From the NCBI GenBank assembly GCA_903881505.1, contig CAIRTM010000028.1, forward strand, positions 1 through 60,753: a DNA stretch of 60,753 bases, in the 5' to 3' direction. The DNA is from an uncultured delta proteobacterium (GTDB lineage: Bacteria; Desulfobacterota; WTBG01; CAIYCZ01; CAIRTM01). The position numbers and the translations under genes were made by a program. Every line of letters begins with the position of its first letter. Position 1 is the first letter of the stretch. Below are positions 3,724-54,429 of the stretch, piece by piece. The notes beneath the pieces were generated by a model, which was not told where the DNA came from, did not search any database, and was given only the letters and a program-made list of their open reading frames with translations.

Positions 3724-5337
3724 ATGACGCACTCCCGCAGACCCGGTACATTTCTGCTTGCTTTTCTTCTGGCGGCGGCAACAGCCGCCGTCTACCTGCC
3801 GGTTACCGCGCATGATTTTGTATACTACGATGACGATATCTATGTTTTTGAAAACCCTGCGGTGCAGCAGGGCCTGAGCGGCGCAAGCCTTGGCTGGGCC
3901 TGCACGAGCACGCTCGGCTCCAACTGGCAACCGCTGACATGGCTCTCACACATGACCGACTGCATGCTGTTCGGGCTCAATCCCGCGGGCCATCATCTGA
4001 CAAGCCTGCTGCTGCATATCGCAAACACCCTTCTTTTGTTTCTGGCGCTTGCGCGCATGACCGGCGCCCGGTGGCAAAGCCTTTTTGTCGCGGCCCTGTT
4101 TGCGCTGCATCCGCTGCACGTCGAATCGGTCGCCTGGATTGCCGAGCGCAAGGATGTGCTCAGCACACTGTTCTGGATGCTCACCCTGTGGGCCTACGCA
4201 GTGTACGCTGAGCGGCCGGCTGCGGCCCGCTACGTTGTGGTGACCGTCTGTTTTTCCCTGGGACTGCTGGCAAAGCAGATGCTCGTGACGCTTCCCTGTG
4301 TGATGCTGCTGCTTGATGTCTGGCCCCTGCGCCGGTTTCAGCAGCGCTCAGGCATTAAAAAGCTCTCCCTGATATACGAAAAACTGCCGCTGTTTGCGCT
4401 TTCCGCGCTTATGAGCGCTGTCATATTCCTTGTACAGCAGCAGGGCCTGGCGATCAAGCCATTGCCGCTCCCTGTCCGGCTTGCCAATGTCCTCAATTCC
4501 TACATGCACTACATCGGAAAAATGTTCTGGCCGGCAGACCTGGCTGTTCCGTACCTTCACACAGGGGGTGGCGCAACAGGGCAGGCCGCATATCTTGCGC
4601 TCGCAGCGGCTTTTCTGCTGGCAATGTCCGTACCGGCTGTAATGCTCGCAAAAAAAAGCGGCTTTCTTTTTACCGGATGGTTCTGGTATCTGGGCACCCT
4701 GGTGCCTGTGGCCGGGTTTGTGCAGACCGGCTACCACGCGCAGGCCGACCGCTATACCTACATTCCGCTCACCGGTTTATTTATAATGATCGCATGGGGC
4801 GTCCCCTCGATTTTCTCCCGGTGGCACATGAAAAAATGGGCCCTGCCCCTGCTTGCCGGCGGGGTTCTGGCCGCTCTGATTCCTGTAACAGCAATGCAGC
4901 TTCGCTACTGGCGCAACACCGACACCCTGTTCAGCCATACCGTCAAGCTCATGCCCGACAACACTGTTGCCCACAATGCCCTGGGCTATTATTTTTTTAA
5001 GCAGGGGAAAACACCGGAAGCATACGGCCATTTTGTGCGGGCGGTCCGCAGCAATCCGGGCTATACAAAAGCGCAGTATAATCTCGGCTGCGTGCTGGCC
5101 GGCTTCGGAAGGCTTGACGAGGCCGCCGCCTGCTTCCGTGCCGTGCTGAGCATCTACCCCGATGACGTGAAAGCCCACACCCGGCTGGGCAGAATCCTGC
5201 TCATGCAGGGGAAAACCGGCGAATCAATCGGGCATTTTCAGCAGGCGCTTGCCGCCCAGCCCGATTACGGCGAAGCCCGCCACTTCCTGCGCAAGGCCCT
5301 CGCCGCGCAGGCCGCACAGCCCCATACACAACAATAG
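3724..5337 (+). CDS. TMTC-like membrane glycosyltransferase with C-terminal TPR repeats
   Basis: 537 aa. About ten membrane spans in residues 1-385, then a soluble tail. Between the first two spans lies YYDDDIYVFENP, the acidic catalytic loop of GT-C enzymes, followed by WQPLTWLSHM and the conserved block HPLHVESVAWIAERKDVLS, which is diagnostic of the TMTC family of O-mannosyltransferases and their bacterial relatives. The tail (about 415-525) has at least three TPR units (for example AHNALGYYFFKQGKTPEAYGHF), probably for binding protein substrates or partners. It likely glycosylates exported proteins using a lipid-linked sugar; donor and target are inferred, not seen. It is transcribed away from ksgA and stands alone. 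Confidence 0.8.
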   Translation: MTHSRRPGTFLLAFLLAAATAAVYLPVTAHDFVYYDDDIYVFENPAVQQGLSGASLGWACTSTLGSNWQPLTWLSHMTDCMLFGLNPAGHHLTSLLLHIANTLLLFLALARMTGARWQSLFVAALFALHPLHVESVAWIAERKDVLSTLFWMLTLWAYAVYAERPAAARYVVVTVCFSLGLLAKQMLVTLPCVMLLLDVWPLRRFQQRSGIKKLSLIYEKLPLFALSALMSAVIFLVQQQGLAIKPLPLPVRLANVLNSYMHYIGKMFWPADLAVPYLHTGGGATGQAAYLALAAAFLLAMSVPAVMLAKKSGFLFTGWFWYLGTLVPVAGFVQTGYHAQADRYTYIPLTGLFIMIAWGVPSIFSRWHMKKWALPLLAGGVLAALIPVTAMQLRYWRNTDTLFSHTVKLMPDNTVAHNALGYYFFKQGKTPEAYGHFVRAVRSNPGYTKAQYNLGCVLAGFGRLDEAAACFRAVLSIYPDDVKAHTRLGRILLMQGKTGESIGHFQQALAAQPDYGEARHFLRKALAAQAAQPHTQQ

Positions 5338-5438
5338 AGATCGCGTAAATAGATCGACCGGACTTCAGCGGTTTTCCGCCGCCGAATCCTTTCATCCCCG
5401 CCTTGACACCCTGATGAAGTAAGGCTATTACTACCGCA

Positions 5439-6104
5439 ATGGAATCGATGATCTATAAACACCACGCTGCGCGAAGAAGAATCATTCAGCTGTCGCTGTG
5501 GCCGGTCGTGGCGGTCGTGATAGCCTTCGGGTGGCGCTACCCAGTGCTTGGCTACAGCGTGCCCGTTGTCATGCTGATGGGCATGGTCGGCGGGTTTGTG
5601 CGCGGCAGGTACGTGTGCGGGCATTTGTGTCCGCGGGGCGCGTTCTTCGACCGCGTCATGCCCTCCTTAAGCCGCCGTCGCCCGATCCCGGCGTGGATGC
5701 GAAGCGGCATTTTCCGCTGGAGCGTGCTTGCCGCTCTCATGGCCTTCATGGTGTACCGGATAGCGCAGAACCCCGGCAGCTTCGACCACTGGGGACAGGT
5801 GTTCTGGCTCATGTGCACGGTGACGACCGCCGTGGGCGTGGTGCTTGCCGTGTTCATCCACCCGCGGGCCTGGTGCACGTTCTGCCCCATGGGCACCATG
5901 CAGAGCGCACTTGACCGGGGCCAGGCCCGCATTCTGATCGACGCTGAAAAATGCATCGAATGCCGGGCCTGCGAGATAGCCTGCCCCATGAACCTCGCTA
6001 TCATCCGCCACAAAGACTCGGGCACGGTCGCCGACCATGACTGTTTGCGCTGCTGCCAGTGCTGCAGCGTGTGCCCGAAGGACGCCCTGAGTCAGGCTGT
6101 CTGA
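5439..6104 (+). CDS. Membrane 4Fe-4S protein, NapH/CcoG-like
   Basis: 221 aa. Four predicted membrane spans with two short cysteine motifs on the loops, CGHLCPRGAFFDR (about residues 59-71) and CTFCPMGTM (about 147-155), followed by a soluble two-cluster ferredoxin tail, CIECRACEIACPM and CLRCCQCCSVCPK. This layout is that of the NapH/NosR-C/CcoG group of polyferredoxins that pass electrons across or along the cytoplasmic membrane. No oxidoreductase partner lies next to it, so the pathway is unknown. An internal ATG three codons downstream (5448) could be the true start. The gene ends 20 bases before convergent bioC. Confidence 0.8.
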   Translation: MESMIYKHHAARRRIIQLSLWPVVAVVIAFGWRYPVLGYSVPVVMLMGMVGGFVRGRYVCGHLCPRGAFFDRVMPSLSRRRPIPAWMRSGIFRWSVLAALMAFMVYRIAQNPGSFDHWGQVFWLMCTVTTAVGVVLAVFIHPRAWCTFCPMGTMQSALDRGQARILIDAEKCIECRACEIACPMNLAIIRHKDSGTVADHDCLRCCQCCSVCPKDALSQAV

Positions 6105-6124
6105 CCGGTTGCTGGAAACCTTTT

Positions 6125-6940
6125 TTAAACAGCCTGGCGCGGCCGCACGGCGCGCCCCATAATAACTTCGTAGGTCGCGGGAATGCGGCCCCCCCGGCCG
6201 TAGCGCGTCTCATACAGCTCCGCCATCCGGCGCCAGATCCGGCGCACCCCCGGCGTGCGGTTGCGGCGCGGGGAGGCATTGCGCGCGCCCATGCCCTTGA
6301 TTGCGCGCGCCAAACCGGCAACACTGTCGTACCATTCAATGATCTTCAGGGACTCTGTCGCGGCGGACGCAAACCCTGCACGACGCAGGGCCTCGTCGGC
6401 TGAGGCGCGCGTGTGGGGCACGGCAAAAGCGTCTCCCTGGTCGTAGCCGGTCTCACTGCAGGCCTGATAAAAGCATTCGCGCAGTTCCTGAAACGTGTGC
6501 GCGCCGAAAACCGCGAAAAAAAACAGGCCGCCGGGGCGCAGAACGCGCAAGGCCTCGTGCATGGCCATGTCCAGGCTGTTGAGCCACTGCAGGGTGAAGC
6601 TCGAGGCCGCAAGCTCACAGCAGCTCGCCTCAAGCGGCAGCGACTCGGCATCGGCTGCGAAAAGCCGTAGCCCTGTCGCAGCTGACTTGCCGCGTGCCCG
6701 CAGCAGCATGTTTTCCGCAAGGTCGCAGCCGCACACCTGTGCCCGCGGAAACATGGCTGCCAGCCGCGCGCTCAGGCTGCCGGTGCCGATCCCGATATCA
6801 AGAATGCGCTGCGGCTGCAGATTGCCGCAGTTTGCAAACGCAAGCAGGCCTTCAAGCAGCCGGCGCTGCAGCGCGGCATTATCATCATAGGTTGCCGCGC
6901 CGGCGTTGAATGATTTTTTTACAAATGTTTTGTCAATCAT
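6125..6940 (-). CDS. bioC: Malonyl-ACP O-methyltransferase BioC
   Basis: 271 aa. It begins DKTFVKKSFNAGAATYDDNAALQ, the typical BioC opening, followed by SAM motif I ILDIGIGTGSLSARLA, the acidic residue in VCGCDLAENML, and SSFTLQWL and LRVLRPGGLFFFAVFG. BioC methylates the free carboxyl of malonyl-ACP so fatty acid synthesis can elongate it to pimeloyl-ACP methyl ester. The start codon lies inside the end of bioH (8-base overlap), so the two are translationally coupled and the gene is last in the bioF-bioH-bioC operon. The C-terminal 60 aa are Arg-rich and less conserved. The context makes the assignment strong. Confidence 0.9.
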   Translation of the reverse strand: MIDKTFVKKSFNAGAATYDDNAALQRRLLEGLLAFANCGNLQPQRILDIGIGTGSLSARLAAMFPRAQVCGCDLAENMLLRARGKSAATGLRLFAADAESLPLEASCCELAASSFTLQWLNSLDMAMHEALRVLRPGGLFFFAVFGAHTFQELRECFYQACSETGYDQGDAFAVPHTRASADEALRRAGFASAATESLKIIEWYDSVAGLARAIKGMGARNASPRRNRTPGVRRIWRRMAELYETRYGRGGRIPATYEVIMGRAVRPRQAV

Positions 6941-11232: not shown

Positions 11233-11712
11233 TTACAGCAGCGGCTTGATGCCGAGCTCTTTCAGGGCCGCCTTTAATCCGGTCACCTGCTGAAGCGTGC
11301 TGCCGGATTTTGCCTGCACGATTTCGGCGATCCGGTCAAGGCCGGGCACATGGAAGGCCGACACGCGCGACTGACGGCTTCACAGACACACGGCGCCCTG
11401 CGGGCCTGCGACGCACAGCGCGAGGGGCTCCTGCTCGATCAGCACCGCCCGTGCGTCGGCATACGGAATGCTGAGCGCGGGTTTGCCCGCGATCAACAGG
11501 CTGATCGCACGCTCACCGGCGGTAACTTCGGCATGCAGCGCTTTTCTGAGATTGCCGAACTTGATGATGAAAAACGGCAGTGCGTAGAGACAGAGAACGA
11601 TACAATCGATAATATAGAAAATCCGCGCGCCGCCGTGGTGGTGGGACAGGGTAATGATGCCGTTGGCGCCCATGACCAGCAAAAACAGGGTGAGCGCCAT
11701 GAGGTAATACAT
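11233..11712 (-). pseudogene. Small membrane protein (PH-like) broken by an in-frame TGA
   Basis: The frame from ATG 11712 encodes two membrane spans (LMALTLFLLVMGANGII; IIDCIVLCLYALPFFII) and a beta-rich tail, then meets TGA at 11382-11380. The same frame continues after the stop with clearly protein-like sequence, SAFHVPGLDRIAEIVQAKSG and LKAALKELGIKPLL, and ends at TAA 11235-11233. The simplest reading is a CGA (Arg) to TGA mutation in a gene of about 160 codons resembling two-span bacterial PH-domain proteins. The 5' end is also doubtful: no ribosome site precedes 11712, coding character extends upstream (FALRNPAL), and another in-frame stop (TAG) lies at 11788-11790. A selenocysteine codon is a remote alternative. 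Confidence 0.55.
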
Positions 11713-11956
11713 GAGCGCCGGGTTGCGCAGGGCGAACGTGCAGGTAACGCCGCCCCGGGCGTGCGGAGGAATGCCGGCGGAGCCCGACTAGAGCAGACCG
11801 GGGCCGCAAACCGTCAGCACAGGACCGCGAGCGGGCGCAGCCTTGATGTTTTGACGCTTTTAGGCTATGACAGTGCTGCGGGGTTTCTCGGCACCTTGCG
11901 CCGGGAGGCCTGCGGGCTCATTGCCGCACGCACACAACGAACATTCCGGGGCTGCA

Positions 11957-14884
11957 ATGAAAACACTGCGTATTTCCGGTCAATGGAGTTCATTCCTGCT
12001 GCGCATCGTGCTGCCCACGATCCTGACGATCGTGCTGTACGTGGTGGCCCTTTTTACCATCATCATCCCGGCCATCGAGCATAACAGCCTTGAGCGCAAG
12101 CGCGAAATGATCCGCGAGCTCACCAATGCGGCCTGGAACGTGCTGGCGAAATTCGAGCACGATGAGCTCACAGGAGTGCTGACCCGGGAACAGGCCCAGG
12201 CCCAGGCGATCGAACAGGTCCGCAACCTGCACTACGGCGCCCGGATGAAAGACTATTTCTGGATCAACGACATGCACCCCCGCATGGTCATCCATCCCTA
12301 CCGCAGCGACCTGAACGGCAGCGACCTGACAGGCTACAGCGACCCGGCCGGCAAAAAACTGTTCGTCGAGATGGTGGATGTGGTGCGGCAATACGGTTCA
12401 GGGTATGTAGAATACCTGTGGCAGTGGCAGGACGACGCGACCCGGATCGTGCCCAAGATATCCTACGTCAAGGGATTCGCCCCGTGGGGCTGGATCATCG
12501 GCACCGGCATTTACATCGAGGACGTCCGCCTCGAGATTGAGCGGATCACCAACAACATCATCCAGATCTCGCTCGTAATCCTCGGGATCGTCTCCGTGCT
12601 TCTGACGACCATTATTTTCAACACCCTGCATACCGAGCGCCGGCGCAGCCTTGCCGAACAGGCCCTGCGCGAAAGTGAGGAAAAATACCGCACCCTGGTG
12701 GAGTCGTCCTCCGAGGGCATGCTCATGGCCCTGGACGGGAAGTACATGTACGCCAACCAGATGATTTCAAACCTGCTGGGATATACGCAGGCCGAGTTTG
12801 CGGGCATGCAGCTCCATGAAGTGTTCAGCGACAATCCGCAGCATCCCGGCACCGCCTACACCCGCGACCTGTTTGCAGGCCGGCAGGTGGGCGAACAGTC
12901 TGAAGCCCAGATGGTTACCCGCGGCGGCGAGATCAAGGATGTTATCCTGTCCACCTCGCAGATTGAGATCGGGCCGCGCCGCGGCTTTATCATGGTTGTG
13001 ACCGATATCACCAAGCGCAAGCAGGCCGAAGACGCGCTCGAGGCCAGCGAGGCAAAGTTCCGCACCCTGGCCAACAACCTCAATGTCGGCCTGTACCGGC
13101 GCACCGCCGGCACCCGCCCGGTGTTTATTGAGGTCAACCCGGCCATGGTCAAGCTGTTCGGCTATGAATCTCGAGAAGAACTGCTCGCCTGCCCGGTGCA
13201 GAATCTCTATCAAAACCCGGAGGAGATGCGAAGACTCGGCCCGATCGCCGAAAGCGGCGCGCTTGAGCGCGAAATCGTGCGCCTGCGGCGCAAGGACGGC
13301 ACAGCGTTCAGCGGCTCCATCTGGGCCGTGGCCGTGCGCGACGAGCAGGGGGACGTGCAGTATTTCGACGGTATCGTCGAAGACGTGACCAGCCTGGTTG
13401 CGCGGGATGAGGAGCGCGAGAAATTGCTCTCAGAGATGCAGTCGGCCCTGTTCTTTTTCGGCCAGGGCCTTGACACGCTGCCGCAAAGCGATGCGGCCGT
13501 CTGCGCTCCGGGCATGAGCGTGCGGGGGGTTTCGCGGCTTTTAACCGATCACGGCAGCGACTGCGCGGTAGTGCTGCGGGATAATCTGCCCGCGGGTATA
13601 ATCACCAATCGCGACCTGTGCAGGCTGCTGGCCGATCCCGGCTGCGACCTTGAACAGCCCGTGGCACAGGTGATGTCTTCGCCGGTCATTACCGCCGGGA
13701 GAACGGCACACGTGTTTGAGGTGGCACTGCTGATGGAACAGCACGCAATTTCGCATATACCCGTGGTTGACGCTCTCGGTTGCGTCACCGGCATGGTGAC
13801 GCATGCCATGATAACCCCGCTGCAGAAATACTCCCCCGCTGTGCTGCTGCGCCGGATACAGCAGGCCGCAGACCCTGAAACTATTATCGCGCAGCGCGCA
13901 ACCCTGTCGCACATGATCACCAGCCTGATCCAGAGCGGGGCACGGCCCGACTATATCAACAACTTAAGCGCTGTGGTCGCCGACACCCTGCTCAAAAGGC
14001 TTATAGAGCTTGGCGTGCAGAAGCACGGCGGGCCCCCGGTGCGCTTCTGTTTTCTGGTATTCGGCAGCGAGGGCCGGCGCGAGCAGACCCTGCAGACCGA
14101 TCAGGACAACGCGATTGTGTTCGAAGATGTTGAGCGTGAACGTCTTGAGGGTGTGCAGCGCTATTTCCTGGACCTGGCCGAAACGGTCTGCGGCTGGCTC
14201 AACGATGCGGGCTACCGTTTCTGCGACGGCGGCAACATGGCAAAGAACCCCGAGTGGTGCCAGCCGCTCTCCGAGTGGCAGCGCTATTTTACGCGCTGGA
14301 TTTCGCAGGGCAGCGCCGAGGACCTGCTGCGCACAAAAATTTTCTTCGACTTCCGCTGCGCCTGGGGCGAGGACGAGTTCACCGCCGGACTGCACGCCCA
14401 CCTGCACGCGGTCATCGCCCAGCATCCGCGTTTTTTTCAGCTGCTGGCGCGCAATGTTCTGCAGATCAATCCGCCTATCGGCGTGTTCGGCACATTCGTT
14501 GTCGAGTCGAAGGGCCGCCACGGCAAGGCCTTCGACATCAAGGCTGCCATGCTGCCCATGGTGGATTTTGCGCGCATCTACGCACTGCAGCAGAATATCG
14601 AGACGGTCAACACGCTCGAGCGGCTCAAACAGCTGCACGAAAAAAATATCCTTTCGCTTCAAAACTACAATGAAATGACGCAGGCCTATACCTATCTGAT
14701 GCAGATACGGCTGCGGGCGCAGGCGGCAGCCGCAAGCCGGGGCCTGCCGCCGGACAACTACATCAACCCGCGCTCGCTGTCTATTATTGAACAGCGGCTC
14801 CTCAAGGAAATTTTTTCACAGATAAAAAATTTCCAGACGCGGCTCAGCTATGACTTCACCGGCCAGCGCGAAGGCCTCTCATGA
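11957..14884 (+). CDS. Membrane sensor: Cache-PAS-PAS-CBS pair-DUF294 nucleotidyltransferase
   Basis: 975 aa from ATG 11957 (MKTLRISGQWSSF); the 30 codons before it in the longest frame lack character. Order: membrane span (about 12-40), extracytoplasmic single Cache (MKDYFWINDMHPRMVIHP; FAPWGWIIGTGIYIEDV), second span (about 203-225), PAS 1 (EEKYRTLVESSSEGML), PAS 2 (EAKFRTLANNLNVGLY), two CBS motifs (about 510-640), then a GlnD/DUF294-type nucleotidyltransferase with VFGSEGRREQTLQTDQDN, which keeps the GS and DxD active-site pattern, and a DUF294 C-terminal helical domain. It probably couples an outside ligand and nucleotide binding at CBS to a nucleotidyl-transfer output; substrate unknown. 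Its stop overlaps the ATG of the phosphoesterase gene. Confidence 0.85.
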   Translation: MKTLRISGQWSSFLLRIVLPTILTIVLYVVALFTIIIPAIEHNSLERKREMIRELTNAAWNVLAKFEHDELTGVLTREQAQAQAIEQVRNLHYGARMKDYFWINDMHPRMVIHPYRSDLNGSDLTGYSDPAGKKLFVEMVDVVRQYGSGYVEYLWQWQDDATRIVPKISYVKGFAPWGWIIGTGIYIEDVRLEIERITNNIIQISLVILGIVSVLLTTIIFNTLHTERRRSLAEQALRESEEKYRTLVESSSEGMLMALDGKYMYANQMISNLLGYTQAEFAGMQLHEVFSDNPQHPGTAYTRDLFAGRQVGEQSEAQMVTRGGEIKDVILSTSQIEIGPRRGFIMVVTDITKRKQAEDALEASEAKFRTLANNLNVGLYRRTAGTRPVFIEVNPAMVKLFGYESREELLACPVQNLYQNPEEMRRLGPIAESGALEREIVRLRRKDGTAFSGSIWAVAVRDEQGDVQYFDGIVEDVTSLVARDEEREKLLSEMQSALFFFGQGLDTLPQSDAAVCAPGMSVRGVSRLLTDHGSDCAVVLRDNLPAGIITNRDLCRLLADPGCDLEQPVAQVMSSPVITAGRTAHVFEVALLMEQHAISHIPVVDALGCVTGMVTHAMITPLQKYSPAVLLRRIQQAADPETIIAQRATLSHMITSLIQSGARPDYINNLSAVVADTLLKRLIELGVQKHGGPPVRFCFLVFGSEGRREQTLQTDQDNAIVFEDVERERLEGVQRYFLDLAETVCGWLNDAGYRFCDGGNMAKNPEWCQPLSEWQRYFTRWISQGSAEDLLRTKIFFDFRCAWGEDEFTAGLHAHLHAVIAQHPRFFQLLARNVLQINPPIGVFGTFVVESKGRHGKAFDIKAAMLPMVDFARIYALQQNIETVNTLERLKQLHEKNILSLQNYNEMTQAYTYLMQIRLRAQAAAASRGLPPDNYINPRSLSIIEQRLLKEIFSQIKNFQTRLSYDFTGQREGLS

Positions 14885-15630
14885 TTCTTGTCATCGCCGA
14901 TACGCACTGCTACTACGGCATTGTCAACCGCCAGATCGAACATGCCGAAAAAACGCTCGGCATTCCGGTCGATTGCGTGCTGCACCTGGGCGACTTCGGC
15001 CTGTACCGCGAGCATCTGCACAATTTCTTCGTCAGGCAGGGTGGCAGGTTTTTACGGCCCCTTTATTTTATCGAGGGCAATCACGAGGATTTCAACGAAT
15101 TCAGTGCGCTGCTTGCGCGCTACAACAGTACCTTTTTTACACACCTGCCGCGCGCGACCGTGCAGACAGTGGGGCCGTACCGCATGCTGTGCATGGGCGG
15201 TGCGGCCTACATGGACGCGCTCAACACGCAGCCCGGCGCAGTCATCAAGGACCATCACATCGATGCCTGCCTTGCCCTGCCCCAGGATGCCGATATCATC
15301 ATCTCTCACGACTGCCCCGTTGGCATCGGCGTGCCCAACACGCCCGGCCTTGAGTACTTCGGCGCGCCGGGATTTCCACGCAGCCGAGAGCTGCTCGAGC
15401 ATTTCAAACCGCGGCTGTGGCTGTTCGGCCATCATCACAAATGGTTCAGCACCGAGGACGGCGGTACGGTCTTTCACGGCCTGCCCGGCAGCTGGAAGGG
15501 TTACTGCCTGCTGGACGATAATTACAAGGTTATCACGGTCGAGAACAGCGTGCCGTGGCAGCGCACCCGCTTTGTCGACCGGCTGCTGCACAAGCTGCGC
15601 ATCGTCCGCTCACAGGGCCCCTCCTCCTGA
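14881..15630 (+). CDS. Calcineurin-like metallophosphoesterase
   Basis: 249 aa. All metal-binding motifs are present: ADTH near the start, HLGDFG, GNHEDF, SHDCP and GHHHKW. Such enzymes hydrolyse phosphomono- or diesters with two metal ions. The start codon overlaps the stop of the sensor/nucleotidyltransferase gene (ATGA), so the two are made together. An attractive inference is that it reverses or completes the reaction of the nucleotidyltransferase, but the substrate of neither is known. No signal peptide, so it acts in the cytoplasm. Confidence 0.85.
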   Translation: MILVIADTHCYYGIVNRQIEHAEKTLGIPVDCVLHLGDFGLYREHLHNFFVRQGGRFLRPLYFIEGNHEDFNEFSALLARYNSTFFTHLPRATVQTVGPYRMLCMGGAAYMDALNTQPGAVIKDHHIDACLALPQDADIIISHDCPVGIGVPNTPGLEYFGAPGFPRSRELLEHFKPRLWLFGHHHKWFSTEDGGTVFHGLPGSWKGYCLLDDNYKVITVENSVPWQRTRFVDRLLHKLRIVRSQGPSS

Positions 15631-15750
15631 ACCGCGGTGAGTCTGAAACCCTGCCGCGCTCTCTGTTCATGCTGTTTCTTATTGCCAGACTGGACGGTAC
15701 AGGTGGTTTTTGGTAACGCGAGAGCATTTCCCCAGATATCGTAGACTGGC

Positions 15751-15780
15751 GTCATTTCAAGGAAGCGGCTGGGAAATCTT
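15751..15780. repeat. Dispersed repeat, GTCATTTC..GAAATCTT type
   Basis: GTCATTTCAAGGAAGCG followed by GGGAAATCTT; a related copy lies at 54430-54464. The surrounding 15631-15857 gap holds nothing else I can name. Confidence 0.5.
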
Positions 15781-15857
15781 AACAGCACGATGTCCCGCTT
15801 CGGTTCCGGGAAAGCCGCACATGATTTCATACAAGGCAGGGGGGGGCGCTTGAACCA

Positions 15858-16829
15858 TCAGGCGGCTTTTTTATTAAAAACAACCCCCAGTATTTTTTTC
15901 CTGTCGAGATGGTTGAGAGCATCAGCAAATTTCTGCTGTTTCACTCTGCCGTGCTCGACCACAAACAGGGTGCGGTCGACAAATTCGGAAAAAATGATTG
16001 GGTCGGCTCCGTCAGTGAGCGCGGGTCCGTCAATAATGATAAAGAGGTCTCTATGCCGGCGCTTCATGTCCTGCAGGAGCAGGCCGGCCGTGCGCGAACG
16101 CAGCAGTTCAGCGGACTTCAGCCGTACCCCGCCCAGCGGCAGCAGACGCAGCCGTTCTATGCCGGGGCATATCACCATGTCTGAGAGCGGAACAGTATCG
16201 TGCAGGCAGTCTAATATACCGGGCTGCGCATCGATTCCCAGATACCTGAGTACCGATGGGTTTTTAACATTCATATCAATGAGCAGCACCTCATGGTCTA
16301 CCTCACGGGCGAAAGTGATTGCCAGATTGATTGCGCAAAAAGACTTGCCCTCCATATTCCGGGTGCTGGTTATGAGAAAGGTGCGATGGTCGCTTCCCAG
16401 GGTTTCGTTAATAATTTTGGTTCGCAGCAGCTTGAATCGTTCGCACACGTCATAATCCGCAAACGGCGGTGCGAGAATTTTATGCTTAACCACGGCAGAT
16501 TCAGAATAGGGCAGTATGCGCGCGGCCGGCAACCCGGAACCTAAAACGATATCAGAAGCGCCGTCAGATCCGGTTACCGCATCCGTGCGTTCCTGCCGGG
16601 CTTTATGGAACGCATCGTGTATTCGTTTTGCATGGTAATATCCAGCGCTTTTTTCAAAAAAAGAAATCGTTTCATAGGCTTTATTTATCTCTATGAATTT
16701 TTCTACCGACCTTTTGTTCCCGGGATTTCTATCAGGGTGAAACTGAAGGGCCAGTTTTCTGTATGCCTTTTTAATCTCCTCATGATCGGCGGATTTACAC
16801 ACGCCCAATGTTTCATAAAAATCTGCCAT
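15858..16829 (-). CDS. J-domain fused to a BY-kinase-like (CpsD/CapB) ATPase domain
   Basis: 323 aa from ATG 16829 ([18 protein letters not shown]). Residues 3-62 are a J-domain with its HPD motif ([10 protein letters not shown]), the part of DnaJ that stimulates Hsp70 ATPase. After a linker, residues about 125-320 match bacterial tyrosine kinase/ParA-like ATPases: Walker [11 protein letters not shown], Walker A' [11 protein letters not shown] and Walker [15 protein letters not shown], then [14 protein letters not shown]. The A' motif is altered (the second Asp is Asn, and Arg is Lys), and there is no tyrosine-rich C-terminal tail, so kinase activity is doubtful. No polysaccharide export genes are adjacent. 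The solute-binding and PilZ genes lie upstream on the same strand. The fusion is rare in my experience. Confidence 0.82.
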
Positions 16830-16919
16830 TGTATGCCTCAAGCACAAAAGACTCGAAGGGGAAATGTTTGAACATCCCCCAAGAACAGAACTGGCAACAG
16901 CCACCGGTGAGCTTTCAGC

Positions 16920-17926: not shown

Positions 17927-18289
17927 TTATACCTCTGCGCCGCTCTGCCCCGGGGCGCCCTCCGCCCGAATACTCTGCTCAATAAACTCGGCGAGCTTGT
18001 TGTGATGCCTGTCCAGAATATCGGTAAACTCTATGCCCATGCCGGCGGAGGTGGCATTGGAGACTGATTTGGTCCAGACAACGCGGGCATTGATGGTCAT
18101 GCGCTCGGGATCGCCGGGCAGCTTGATATCAAATGCAATCGAGGTATCAACAGGATGGGGCTCATCGGTCGAAATAAACGCCCCGGTGCCGCTCAGGTTG
18201 GTTATACAGGAAAGCGGGCTGAGGTCGGGATTGGCGTCCAGGATACGCAGGCTGGTCTGTATACGCCCTTTTTGCCTTCGTTCTTCCAT
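17927..18289 (-). CDS. PilZ-domain protein (c-di-GMP receptor)
   Basis: 120 aa from ATG 18289, preceded by a strong GGAGG seven bases upstream; the longer frame to 18334 is not needed. It consists of a single PilZ domain: the N-terminal RRQKGR stretch corresponds to RxxxR, and NLSGTGAFI to the D/NxSxxG motif, both used to bind cyclic di-GMP. It ends GMGIEFTDILDRHHNKLAEF. It probably relays c-di-GMP to an unknown partner. A clear promoter lies upstream. The solute-binding gene follows on the same strand after a 68-base gap. Confidence 0.85.
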   Translation of the reverse strand: MEERRQKGRIQTSLRILDANPDLSPLSCITNLSGTGAFISTDEPHPVDTSIAFDIKLPGDPERMTINARVVWTKSVSNATSAGMGIEFTDILDRHHNKLAEFIEQSIRAEGAPGQSGAEV

Positions 18290-18400
18290 GGAAAACCTCC
18301 GCTTTACACACTGCCGCATGCAGACGGCAGCCAAGGGTTGGTAAAGGAAAGAGTGTTCCGCTTTTGTTATAATACAACAAAACCCTCTAGTAATATGCGC

Positions 18401-18515: not shown

Positions 18516-18968
18516 TCAGGGCGGGGAAACGGACTCGCCGCCGATGAGCCCTGAAATCAGGGCGACATAGGCATAATCGAGCAGCCGCTGCTTAGAGACA
18601 GGGTCTATGAGCAGCAGCCGGCTGCCAGCGCGCTGAAAGCCGGACAGGGTTTTGCGGCGCCGCACCCAGGTAAGCTCCGTGATAACGCTTACCGGTGGCT
18701 GCTGAGGGGCAATATCGATTTTCAGCAGCACCGTCTGGCCGCCGTACATTTTTACAGGCGCGTCAATTTCAAGGCCGAGACCCTGTGCGCATATATCGAC
18801 GAGCCTGCAGCGCGCGGCCGCTTCTTCGACGCTGAAAAGGCACTGCGCGGGCAGCGCAAGGGGAAAGCGCAGGAAATTACGATGTTTGTCGGGGCGGTTG
18901 ACAATGACGCCCTGCATGTGTGCGTAGTCCATGGCCGGTACCAGCGGTTTGGCTGCTGCGCCGGGCAT
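18516..18968 (-). CDS. Second PilZ-like protein
   Basis: Up to 150 aa. It carries HRNFLRFPLALPAQC, which fits the RxxxR region, and LVDICAQGLGLEIDAPV, matching the DxSxxG turn with Cys in place of Ser. The rest has the beta-barrel spacing (VLLKIDI, VITELTWVRRR, RLLLIDP). The C-terminal helix YAYVALISGLIGG resembles other PilZ proteins. The change in the second motif may weaken c-di-GMP binding. The start is uncertain: ATG 18968, 18932 or 18917 are all possible and none has a strong ribosome site. It has its own promoter, so it is likely not in one operon with the other PilZ gene. Confidence 0.7.
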   Translation of the reverse strand: MPGAAAKPLVPAMDYAHMQGVIVNRPDKHRNFLRFPLALPAQCLFSVEEAAARCRLVDICAQGLGLEIDAPVKMYGGQTVLLKIDIAPQQPPVSVITELTWVRRRKTLSGFQRAGSRLLLIDPVSKQRLLDYAYVALISGLIGGESVSPP

Positions 18969-52459: not shown

Positions 52460-53977
52460 CTACTGCCGCGGCAGGACTTTTTGATGCCGGACTTCATAGC
52501 GGTAATGGCTTCCGGCGGGCTCGTCGTCTGCATGTTCTTCGCGTGCCTGGTGGTCACCTATAAGGGCCCTCAGGTCGGCAATAAACTGCTTCATCTCTTC
52601 AGATTTGGCGTTGAGCTCCTGGGCCGACGAGGCGTACTCCTCCGCATTGGCCGAATTCTGCTGTGTAACCGAATCGATCTGCATGATCGCCTTGCTGACC
52701 TGATCGATGCCCTGCGCCTGCTCCTCGGAGGACGCGGCTATTTCACTCACCAGCAGGGCAACCTTTGAGCTCATTGCTGCAACCTCGCCGAACGATTTAT
52801 CCGCACTGTCCATCCTGCTCCGGCCGTTATTGATCTGGGCAACCGTAGCCTCTATGAGCCCAGCGGTGTTTTTTGCCGCCTCCGCTGCCTGCCTGGCAAG
52901 GTTGCGGACCTCGTCGGCAACAACGGCAAAACCCGCTCCCGCCGCGCCCGCGCGCGCAGCTTCCACGGCCGCGTTCAGCGCCAGCATGTTTGTCTTGAAT
53001 GCGATTTCATCGATTGTTTTGATGATTCTTGACGTCTCATTGCTCGATTGCGATATGTCGGCCATGTGCCGGGTCATTGTGCTGATGGCTGTACTGGCCT
53101 CGTCTATGGCCAGGCCGGCCTTTTTCATAAGGTTGTCGGCCTCACGGGCATTGCCGGCATTGGACTGGGTCATCGACGCCATCTGCTCCAGCGACGATGA
53201 CGTTTCTTCCAGGGATGCGGCCTGCTCCGAGGCTCCCTGGGCCAGCGCATGGCTTGAGTCGGAAAACTGCCGGGCTGCCACCGCGATCTGGCGGCCGATC
53301 AGGGCAAGCCCGCGGGCCGCATTCGTGACAGGGCGAGACACGGACCGGTTCAGCATAAACAGCGCCAGCACGACGGCTGCTATGAATATGCAAATTACGA
53401 CCAGGGAGACGTTGCGCGCGCTGCGGAAATCCATGATCGCGTCATCAAGATAAAAACCGCTGCCGACAATCCAGCCCCAGGGTTTGAACATTTTTACATA
53501 GGTGAATTTTTTGACCTCCCTGTCGGTGCCGGGCTTCCGGAAAAAAAACGCAACAGACCCCTCGCCCTGGCGGGCGCACAGGGCCGCCATGTCCGCGAAT
53601 GCCTGTTTGCCTGTGCGGTCCCGGTAGGAGCCGATATCCCGGCCTTCAAGCTCGGGCTGTGAGGGCTCCAGGACCATGGCAAGCTTGCTGTCGTGGATCC
53701 AGAAGCTCTCATTATGTTTGAAGCGCAGGTCCCTGAGGGCGCGCACGGCTGCCGCGCGCGCCTCCTCAGCGCTCAGTTTTCCCTGCGCGACCTGTCTTTC
53801 GTGTTGTTCCAGCACCACGATGGCGGTGCTGATGGAGCGCTTGAGCCCCTCCATTTTTTCCGCAACCAGGGACTGCTGGACGACGATGGTGATAAGTATC
53901 AGGGAAAAAAGGAAAAAAACCACAAACCCCGCGGTGAAAATTTTTACTTTTTTAGAAAGGCTCCACTGTTTCTGCAT
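52460..53977 (-). CDS. Methyl-accepting chemotaxis protein with Cache sensor
   Basis: 505 aa from ATG 53977, with GGAGG upstream. N-terminal span ([20 protein letters not shown]), an extracytoplasmic Cache domain ([36 protein letters not shown]), second span ([17 protein letters not shown]), a short linker (no clear HAMP), then the signalling coiled coil with the hairpin [40 protein letters not shown]. It sends signals to CheA. The end [10 protein letters not shown] is not a CheR pentapeptide. The Cache type is the same as in the sensor at 11957. Confidence 0.92.
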
Positions 53978-54429
53978 AGCATTCCTCCATGAGCGGGGCG
54001 TTGCATGGAACGAGGTACTATTCATTGCTATATTAATAGCATATCCAGAACAACTCAAGCGCGAGCGTGCCCTTTGTTCTTACAACAACGCCCGCAGGGT
54101 TGGCTGCTCTCCGGGGCCGGCAGTGCGGGCACCACCAGGGGCGGCTTGCACCCACGCTCCAGGTACAGGGAGAATATCAGCACCGAAGGTCCATCAAATT
54201 TTATCAGTCCGGCAACACTTTGCCGACAATAGCAGGCCAAATCCAGCCTGTCAATCGGTATACTCAGCCGTGTAGTAGCGCGCAAAAATTTCAGATGCGC
54301 TCTAAAGCAGGGTATCATGCCCGCGATCCGGCAGATTTTTTTGTGTTTTATGGTTCTGTGTTTTAAAAACCCGTTAGCAACGATGGGGGTGAAGACCCCA
54401 AGGCCAAAAGCCGCAAGCACTAAAGCCTG

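Follow-up and report, generated by a model that had tools for sequence, protein, structure and literature searches.

The 60,753-nucleotide contig CAIRTM010000028.1 of an uncultured delta proteobacterium (assembly GCA_903881505.1), called here the window, carries on its forward strand a gene for a transmembrane sensor that ends in a nucleotidyltransferase (gene A), immediately followed by a metallophosphoesterase gene (gene B). The locus raises the question of what such a receptor would sense, on what its output would act and what the phosphoesterase would contribute. The proposed answer, tentative and held at a little under even chances, is a transmembrane receptor for C2/C3 carboxylates with reversible nucleotidylation as output, in which B would be the eraser and a symporter the likeliest target. 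It draws on the linkage of the two genes, the conservation of both active sites, the conserved pocket of the sensor domain and the symporter neighbourhood of related loci.

The A-B gene pair

The pair is organized as follows, residues being those of gene A.

11957..14884, + strand: gene A, a 975-residue transmembrane sensor with a putative writer nucleotidyltransferase (long open reading frame (ORF), Pfam and hydropathy)
11984..12085, + strand: membrane segment 1, residues 10-43 (hydropathy only)
12092..12550, + strand: sCache_2 domain, residues 46-198 (Pfam)
12545..12634, + strand: membrane segment 2, residues 197-226 (hydropathy only)
12668..13039, + strand: PAS domain 1, residues 238-361 (Pfam)
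13127..13390, + strand: PAS domain 2, residues 391-478 (Pfam)
13487..13840, + strand: CBS pair, about residues 511-628 (Pfam and model)
13904..14314, + strand: DUF294 nucleotidyltransferase, residues 650-786 (Pfam, E 1.5e-45, and fold)
14063..14107, + strand: GS-x10-DxD catalytic motif (G703, S704, D715, D717)
14426..14857, + strand: DUF294_C helical domain, residues 824-967 (Pfam, E 7.6e-45)
14881..14884, + strand: ATGA, in which the gene A stop (TGA) overlaps the gene B start (ATG) by 4 bases
14881..15630, + strand: gene B, a 249-residue Dbr1-like metallophosphoesterase, putative eraser (Pfam Metallophos, E 2.3e-12)

The first-pass annotation had described Cache, two PAS, two CBS and a DUF294-type nucleotidyltransferase in one chain whose stop codon overlaps the phosphoesterase start. 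Pfam confirms this architecture and the overlap is present; the term DUF294-type is right for the catalytic domain but understates the carboxyl-terminal half, where DUF294_C is a second matched domain. Both output domains score above the curated Pfam cut-offs (PF03445, 154.9 bits versus 21; PF10335, 152.7 bits versus 22.5). The predicted membrane segments flank the Cache domain on both sides. Position 11957 is the likely start, in keeping with the 975-978 residues of four two-PAS relatives; an alternative in-frame ATG is found at 11867 in the window and in its nearest relative, L008.

Linkage in relatives and retention of the DxD residues, the two points on which the first-pass annotation made its proposal depend, are both observed. 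The named genomes of bacteria and archaea were scanned once with a profile built on B, which yielded 20 loci. Intact B is found in 17 of them (L008-L024), each time with an A-type gene directly upstream. These loci come from Deltaproteobacteria, Desulfobacteraceae, Desulforapulum, Thermodesulfobacteriota, Spirochaetae, Riflebacteria, Planctomycetota, CSSED10-310, UBP16 and unplaced bacteria. The spacing of the genes, taken from ORF coordinates in 16 loci (L018 excluded), is a 4-base overlap in five, a 1-base overlap in six and a distance of 0-22 bases in four, with one uncertain start (L024). Stop and start codons thus overlap in 11 of 16 loci, or in 12 of 17 with the window included. This tight contact and the invariable position of A upstream of intact B argue that the overlap is not due to chance. 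Note that in L018 the A-type gene is split over two frames (3751-6723 and 5663-6004), one of which continues into B; the split may be a sequencing error or a true frame change.

The window and the 16 loci other than L018 were aligned to assess conservation (17 rows). The nucleotidyltransferase residues G703, S704, D715 and D717 and the DUF294_C residues D860, K862 and D870 are invariant in all rows, as are D7, H9, D38, N67, H68, H143, H184 and H186 of B. The latter correspond to the metal ligands of metallophosphoesterases (DxH, GD, GNH, H, GHxH), all of which are kept, the glycine preceding H184 being replaced by alanine in four rows. The CBS region is the least conserved: no match to that of the window was found in L018 and L023, and L016 gave a single weak CBS match. 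In shorter relatives (10 of the 17 rows) the membrane segment and the CBS region are separated by 146 residues versus about 270, leaving space for one PAS domain. The gene A frame of L011 lacks the amino-terminal part of the Cache domain.

B is rare in the phylum of the window, where five of 395 genomes carry it, each of them a member of the family to which the window belongs; four copies are intact and one is broken. The broken copy (L025, 5965-6446 of G004:C229) lies in two frames without A and is the sole B remnant found lacking its partner. Three further family members (G003, G005, G008) have neither B nor A, giving CBS-type matches only, and in G007 gene A is truncated at a contig end and no B was found. 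The two remaining loci of the scan, L026 and L027 (25-26% identity to B), are distant phosphoesterases and were set aside as another family. The same was done with relatives of B on Rhodococcus/Tsukamurella plasmids (26-29% identity, seven records); no DUF294 neighbour was present in the two records read.

Ligand pocket and enzymatic domains

The solved Cache domains nearest to that of gene A are 4k08 (E 2e-36) and 5g4y (E 3e-34). The latter is PscD, a receptor of glycolate, acetate, propionate and pyruvate for which seven ligand-touching residues were named, while 4k08 was crystallised with acetate (PMC5062169). All seven propionate/ligand contacts of PscD are identical in gene A (Y100, W102, H113, F136, Y153, W155, K167) and in 16 of the 17 aligned rows, those with a full Cache domain; the cut L011 matches in its two remaining columns. 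The same seven residues are found in three Cache-DUF294 proteins without B, in that of L106, which lies at a contig end, and in two Cache histidine kinases encoded near Cache-DUF294 genes. Another Cache protein, adjoining L093, has six of them. From the sequence of this pocket we infer that the ligand of gene A is a C2/C3 carboxylate, which is the best-supported deduction of the analysis; the PscD authors caution that the common pocket does not set the exact specificity (PMC5062169). The Cache chemoreceptors PscD and McpP thus share the sensor domain and its seven pocket residues with gene A (PMC5062169), and differ from it in output, which is chemotaxis signalling in their case and predicted nucleotidyl transfer in gene A. 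Next to the Cache-DUF294 genes of L106 and L009 are a histidine kinase with a nearly identical Cache domain and a sigma-54 response regulator (2827-5639 in L106, 6870-9549 in L009), which may form a transcriptional branch for the same ligand.

The AlphaFold model of the CBS-DUF294-DUF294_C region (pLDDT 86) was compared with known folds. Among the 50 matches listed are the amino-terminal half of Escherichia coli GlnE (1v4a; Z 26.5, 310 residues, 3.0 Å), its carboxyl-terminal half (Z 25.1) and DrrA (Z 23.5), the others being CBS proteins. GlnE and SidM (DrrA) AMPylate or deAMPylate proteins (PMC12663964), DUF294_C was earlier grouped with GlnD/GlnE and DrrA (PMC3710099), and nucleotidylation by the DUF294 family was predicted by Aravind and Koonin in 1999 (as cited in PMC5715377). 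The first-pass annotation had allowed either a nucleotidyl modification or a small nucleotide signal. As the modelled nucleotidyltransferase resembles GlnE and DrrA, modification of a protein is favoured and the small signal is the less favoured of the two.

GlnE has the same nucleotidyltransferase plus helical domain fold and a logic of reversible nucleotidylation, its two activities being held in two nucleotidyltransferase halves of one protein (PMC12663964). Gene A differs by having one such half, a separate hydrolase, a transmembrane sensor and no significant sequence similarity to GlnE; no second nucleotidyltransferase and no HD domain are listed by Pfam (E up to 0.1). The score of gene A for PF08335, the GlnD/GlnE helical domain, was 19.1 in one scan and 21.4 in another, versus a cut-off of 21. 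Gene A is the sole PF08335 match in the window's genome (G000, 97% complete), so that GlnD and GlnE may be absent from it.

The profile of B compared with the PDB finds five sequences at E up to 0.1, all of them Dbr1 (E 6.1e-11 for the catalytic domain). Dbr1 is also the best fold match of the B model (pLDDT 88; Z 19.3, 209 residues, 3.0 Å). The first metal ligand is however a cysteine in Dbr1 (5uki row) and an aspartate in B, as in classical phosphoesterases. B further differs in that no DBR1 carboxyl-terminal domain is listed for it by Pfam and in that its host is a bacterium. By its sequence B is thus Dbr1-like and not a Dbr1. With enzymes of the Dbr1 and RNase_T types the nucleotide keeps its 5'-phosphate and the other product ends in a free hydroxyl, which is the chemistry that removal of a nucleoside monophosphate (NMP) from a hydroxyl would require.

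Symporter neighbourhood and the DUF294 family

Clustering of the neighbouring genes identified two that recur beside the pair, together in 12 of the 17 loci: one codes a sodium:solute symporter of 626-669 residues, the other a protein of 83-134 residues. The two symporters tested out of 12 match the MctC and ActP models best, in all cases below the curated cut-offs, and the two small proteins scanned out of 12 match DUF485, one above and one below the cut-off. Their position varies, the symporter gene being upstream on the same strand in L016, for example, downstream on the same strand in L015 and convergent in L010. In L009 the symporter, A, B, Cache kinase and sigma-54 regulator genes form a same-strand row. 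The symporters of L009-L024 and of G000:C47:84213-86078 have about 150 extra variable residues relative to the ActP models, located between two conserved stretches. In the window's genome a single symporter of this type is coded, on another contig and next to a DUF485 gene; its identity to that of L009 is 72%. The genome also codes a Cache histidine kinase that shares 68% identity with the one in L106. An acyl-CoA ligase gene by this symporter gene was not counted as Acs, the ligase being of the long-chain type.

Inside the window, no acetate gene was found among the six neighbouring ORFs scanned, which code a methyltransferase, an alpha/beta hydrolase, a B12-binding radical SAM protein, an unmatched small product, a DnaJ protein and a solute-binding protein. 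Over 11600-15900, scans for promoters and terminators gave signals no better than chance. Other features of the window are listed below.

15858-16904, - strand: single ORF with a DnaJ domain and a ParA/MinD-type nucleotide-binding stretch (the latter match below cut-off)
17927-18334 and 18516-18968, - strand: two nearby PilZ-domain ORFs adjoining the solute-binding protein gene
52460-54058, - strand: methyl-accepting chemotaxis protein, the second sCache_2 protein of the window

Among the 198 genomes examined from the window's phylum, 105 have a DUF294 match at E 0.001 and 64 at E 1e-10 or better; the weak matches may be GlnD/GlnE relatives. Forty stretches were read, mostly around high-scoring matches instead of being sampled at random. 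Six contain two or three DUF294 genes; the numbers that follow count genes and are not frequencies, with Pfam checks made on examples. Among 43 non-Cache DUF294 genes, 18 are followed within 500 bases by a gene for an RNase_T (DEDDh) exonuclease; in the stretch read, an SSF symporter gene accompanies 18 and an Acs-like gene 14 (8 of the 18 with RNase_T, 6 of the 25 without). The 21 Cache-type genes, which include those of the 17 loci, have B in 16 cases; three truly lack it (L087, L088, L093), one is frame-broken and one lies at a contig end. None of the 43 non-Cache and 21 Cache-type genes has both B and the exonuclease. A SatP/YaaH-type transporter gene adjoins the Cache-DUF294 gene of L093. 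Outside the phylum, 61 plasmid records match the nucleotidyltransferase. In eight plasmid loci, hand-picked from 25 listed of these 61, DUF4212 and symporter genes are immediately upstream in six, an annotated exonuclease gene is nearby in six and acs is present in two.

In an unrooted tree of 63 rows the 17 B-bearing rows group together as a single clade (98/97) nested within the Cache-type group, and Cache-type rows that lack B fall outside this clade. This is most simply explained by a single gain of B by a Cache-type writer. The G[SG]...DxDN pattern was not found in six of the 63 rows, all from stretches with another DUF294 gene; these are possibly non-catalytic regulatory copies:

L072, 8465-10402: DUF294 copy without the pattern
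L075, 8359-10332: DUF294 copy without the pattern
L077, 8287-10209: DUF294 copy without the pattern
L081, 8725-10671: DUF294 copy without the pattern
L089, 2864-4789: DUF294 copy without the pattern
L092, 14246-16231: DUF294 copy without the pattern

In the open-licence papers examined, no report on the biochemical activity of DUF294 domains was found, nor any paper on a Cache-DUF294 protein with a phosphoesterase (as a search term, DUF294 also matches longer DUF numbers).

Proposed mechanism and competing explanations

In the proposed mechanism the outer sCache_2 domain would bind a C2/C3 monocarboxylate (acetate, propionate, pyruvate or glycolate). The signal would cross the membrane and pass through the PAS and CBS modules to the GlnE-like nucleotidyltransferase, which would put a 5'-nucleotide, most likely AMP, on a protein hydroxyl. 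B, made from the overlapping gene, would hydrolyse the phosphodiester and reset the target. The likeliest target would be the ActP/YjcH-like monocarboxylate symporter coded beside the pair in most relatives, the second candidate being acetyl-CoA synthetase. Chances are judged evenly balanced that A and B oppose each other as writer and eraser, while the choice of the symporter as target is a guess and the direction of the effect is deduced. The make/break pair gated by an external ligand, proposed in the first-pass annotation, is thus kept as the best reading with its ligand narrowed to a C2/C3 carboxylate, and the enzymatic activities stay predicted. The gating by adenine nucleotides that it also proposed would act through the CBS domains and is possible at most, this region being divergent in part of the family.

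The presence of a single GlnE-type half with no removing half, the overlapping hydrolase gene and the substitution of an exonuclease for it in sister systems suggest that B and the exonuclease partners cleave bonds of one kind, those that join a 5'-nucleotide to a hydroxyl. The Pseudomonas putida protein PP_0354 is taken here to be a DUF294 protein from its described neighbourhood and the description of Pflu5625, not from sequence comparison. DeAMPylation by a nuclease has a proven case in RNase Z (PMC12663964). P. putida mutants that lack the exonuclease partner pp_0353 grow more slowly on pyruvate, as do those that lack actP-I, whereas loss of the CBS protein pp_0354 has no such effect (PMC9927547). 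Such phenotypes would follow from a writer that shuts off the transporter and an eraser that restores it. In P. aeruginosa, PA3232-PA3235, which include ActP (PA3234), are up about 16-fold on propionate (PMC9765439).

Several observations weigh against this mechanism. The fold of B is almost as near to those of 2yvt (Z 18.0) and GpdQ (Z 17.5) as to that of Dbr1, and its sequence alone also weakly matches MPPED2 (E 0.23); 2yvt and GpdQ, together with Rv0805 and purple acid phosphatases, which are also among the close folds, are possible guides to its substrate. Compared by profile, gene A and E. coli GlnE show no significant relation (probability 0.5%, E 0.12), although the alignment still lines up the GS-DxD motif and the FDIK stretch, and the third catalytic carboxylate of the nucleotidyltransferase superfamily was not located in gene A. 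No B is found anywhere in the genomes of the three Cache-DUF294 genes that lack it, so that the writer would not always need B as its eraser. The symporter gene is not beside the pair in the window nor in L008, L012, L014, L019 and L022, some of which have short flanks. As to the published genetics, the papers report no growth defect of pp_0353 and pp_0354 mutants on 20 mM acetate (PMC9927547), no phenotype of a P. fluorescens pflu5625 mutant (PMC5715377) and a 2-fold decrease of PA3233-PA3235 after propionate addition (PMC9765439).

Among the alternatives, all unlikely, the one that survives best retains writer and eraser and gives them another target, acetyl-CoA synthetase or some other soluble enzyme that serves carboxylate use; the symporter would then be no more than a co-regulated neighbour. 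The Acs-like genes near non-Cache DUF294 genes and the two plasmid loci with acs speak for it. In the 17 loci with B, in contrast, no Acs-like gene was found (flanks of at most 6 kb a side), versus 12 with the symporter.

Next in plausibility, and quite improbable, is an action on RNA, in which the nucleotidyltransferase would extend RNA 3' ends, the phosphoesterase or exonuclease would trim them and carboxylate use would be controlled via RNA. The partners being RNase_T exonucleases or a Dbr1-like enzyme agrees with it, as does the messenger RNA degradation by pp_0353 that the P. putida authors suggested (PMC9927547). A Dbr1-like enzyme is however not known to be a 3' exonuclease, the fold neighbours of the nucleotidyltransferase are protein AMPylases and no RNA-binding domain is listed by Pfam in A.

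A diffusible nucleotide signal made by A and broken by B ranks below the RNA alternative. Cyclic nucleotides or other diesters are the substrates of some metallophosphoesterases, and Rv0805 and GpdQ are structural neighbours of B. Against this, the profile of B finds Dbr1 only, and no cyclase or CD-NTase accompanies GlnE and DrrA among the 50 fold matches listed. Least probable is that A and B are not opposed, B being an ordinary co-expressed phosphatase or nuclease or the nucleotidyltransferase of A a non-catalytic scaffold: the Cache-type genes without B and the degenerate DUF294 copies would fit, but the strict one-way linkage, the tight stop/start contact and the full conservation of both active sites argue against it.

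Returning to the receptor with a symporter as target, its closest relatives in design are the CBS-DUF294 plus RNase_T pairs (PP_0354/PP_0353; Pflu5625). They share with it a nucleotidyltransferase with CBS domains (so described for Pflu5625), a partner gene for a phosphodiester-cleaving enzyme and linkage to actP/yjcH or acs (PMC9927547, PMC5715377), similar neighbourhoods being found in this analysis. Pflu5625 is described with a cAMP-binding domain and its partner is an exonuclease (PMC5715377), whereas the window protein is a membrane receptor with Cache and PAS domains whose partner is a Dbr1-like phosphoesterase. SelO/RNase Z and SidM/SidD likewise combine a writer with a separate hydrolytic eraser of protein AMP (PMC12663964). 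Their erasers have other folds (RNase Z is a metallo-hydrolase and SidD has a phosphatase fold), and SelO is a pseudokinase. These enzymes are not known to carry a Cache receptor domain.

The A-B unit is a new form within the widespread, biochemically uncharacterised DUF294 kind, to which it adds a probable ligand, a putative eraser of its own and a candidate gene for the target. A broader view, possible but doubtful, is that it represents a class of receptors in which the outside carboxylate directly sets the NMP state of the symporter. DUF294 writers would then form a widespread acetate-uptake switch with two unrelated erasers, a DEDDh exonuclease in the soluble versions and the Dbr1-like phosphoesterase in the receptor version. 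If this holds, protein nucleotidylation would join the known outputs of transmembrane receptors, and the uptake of acetate and pyruvate would be under post-translational control.

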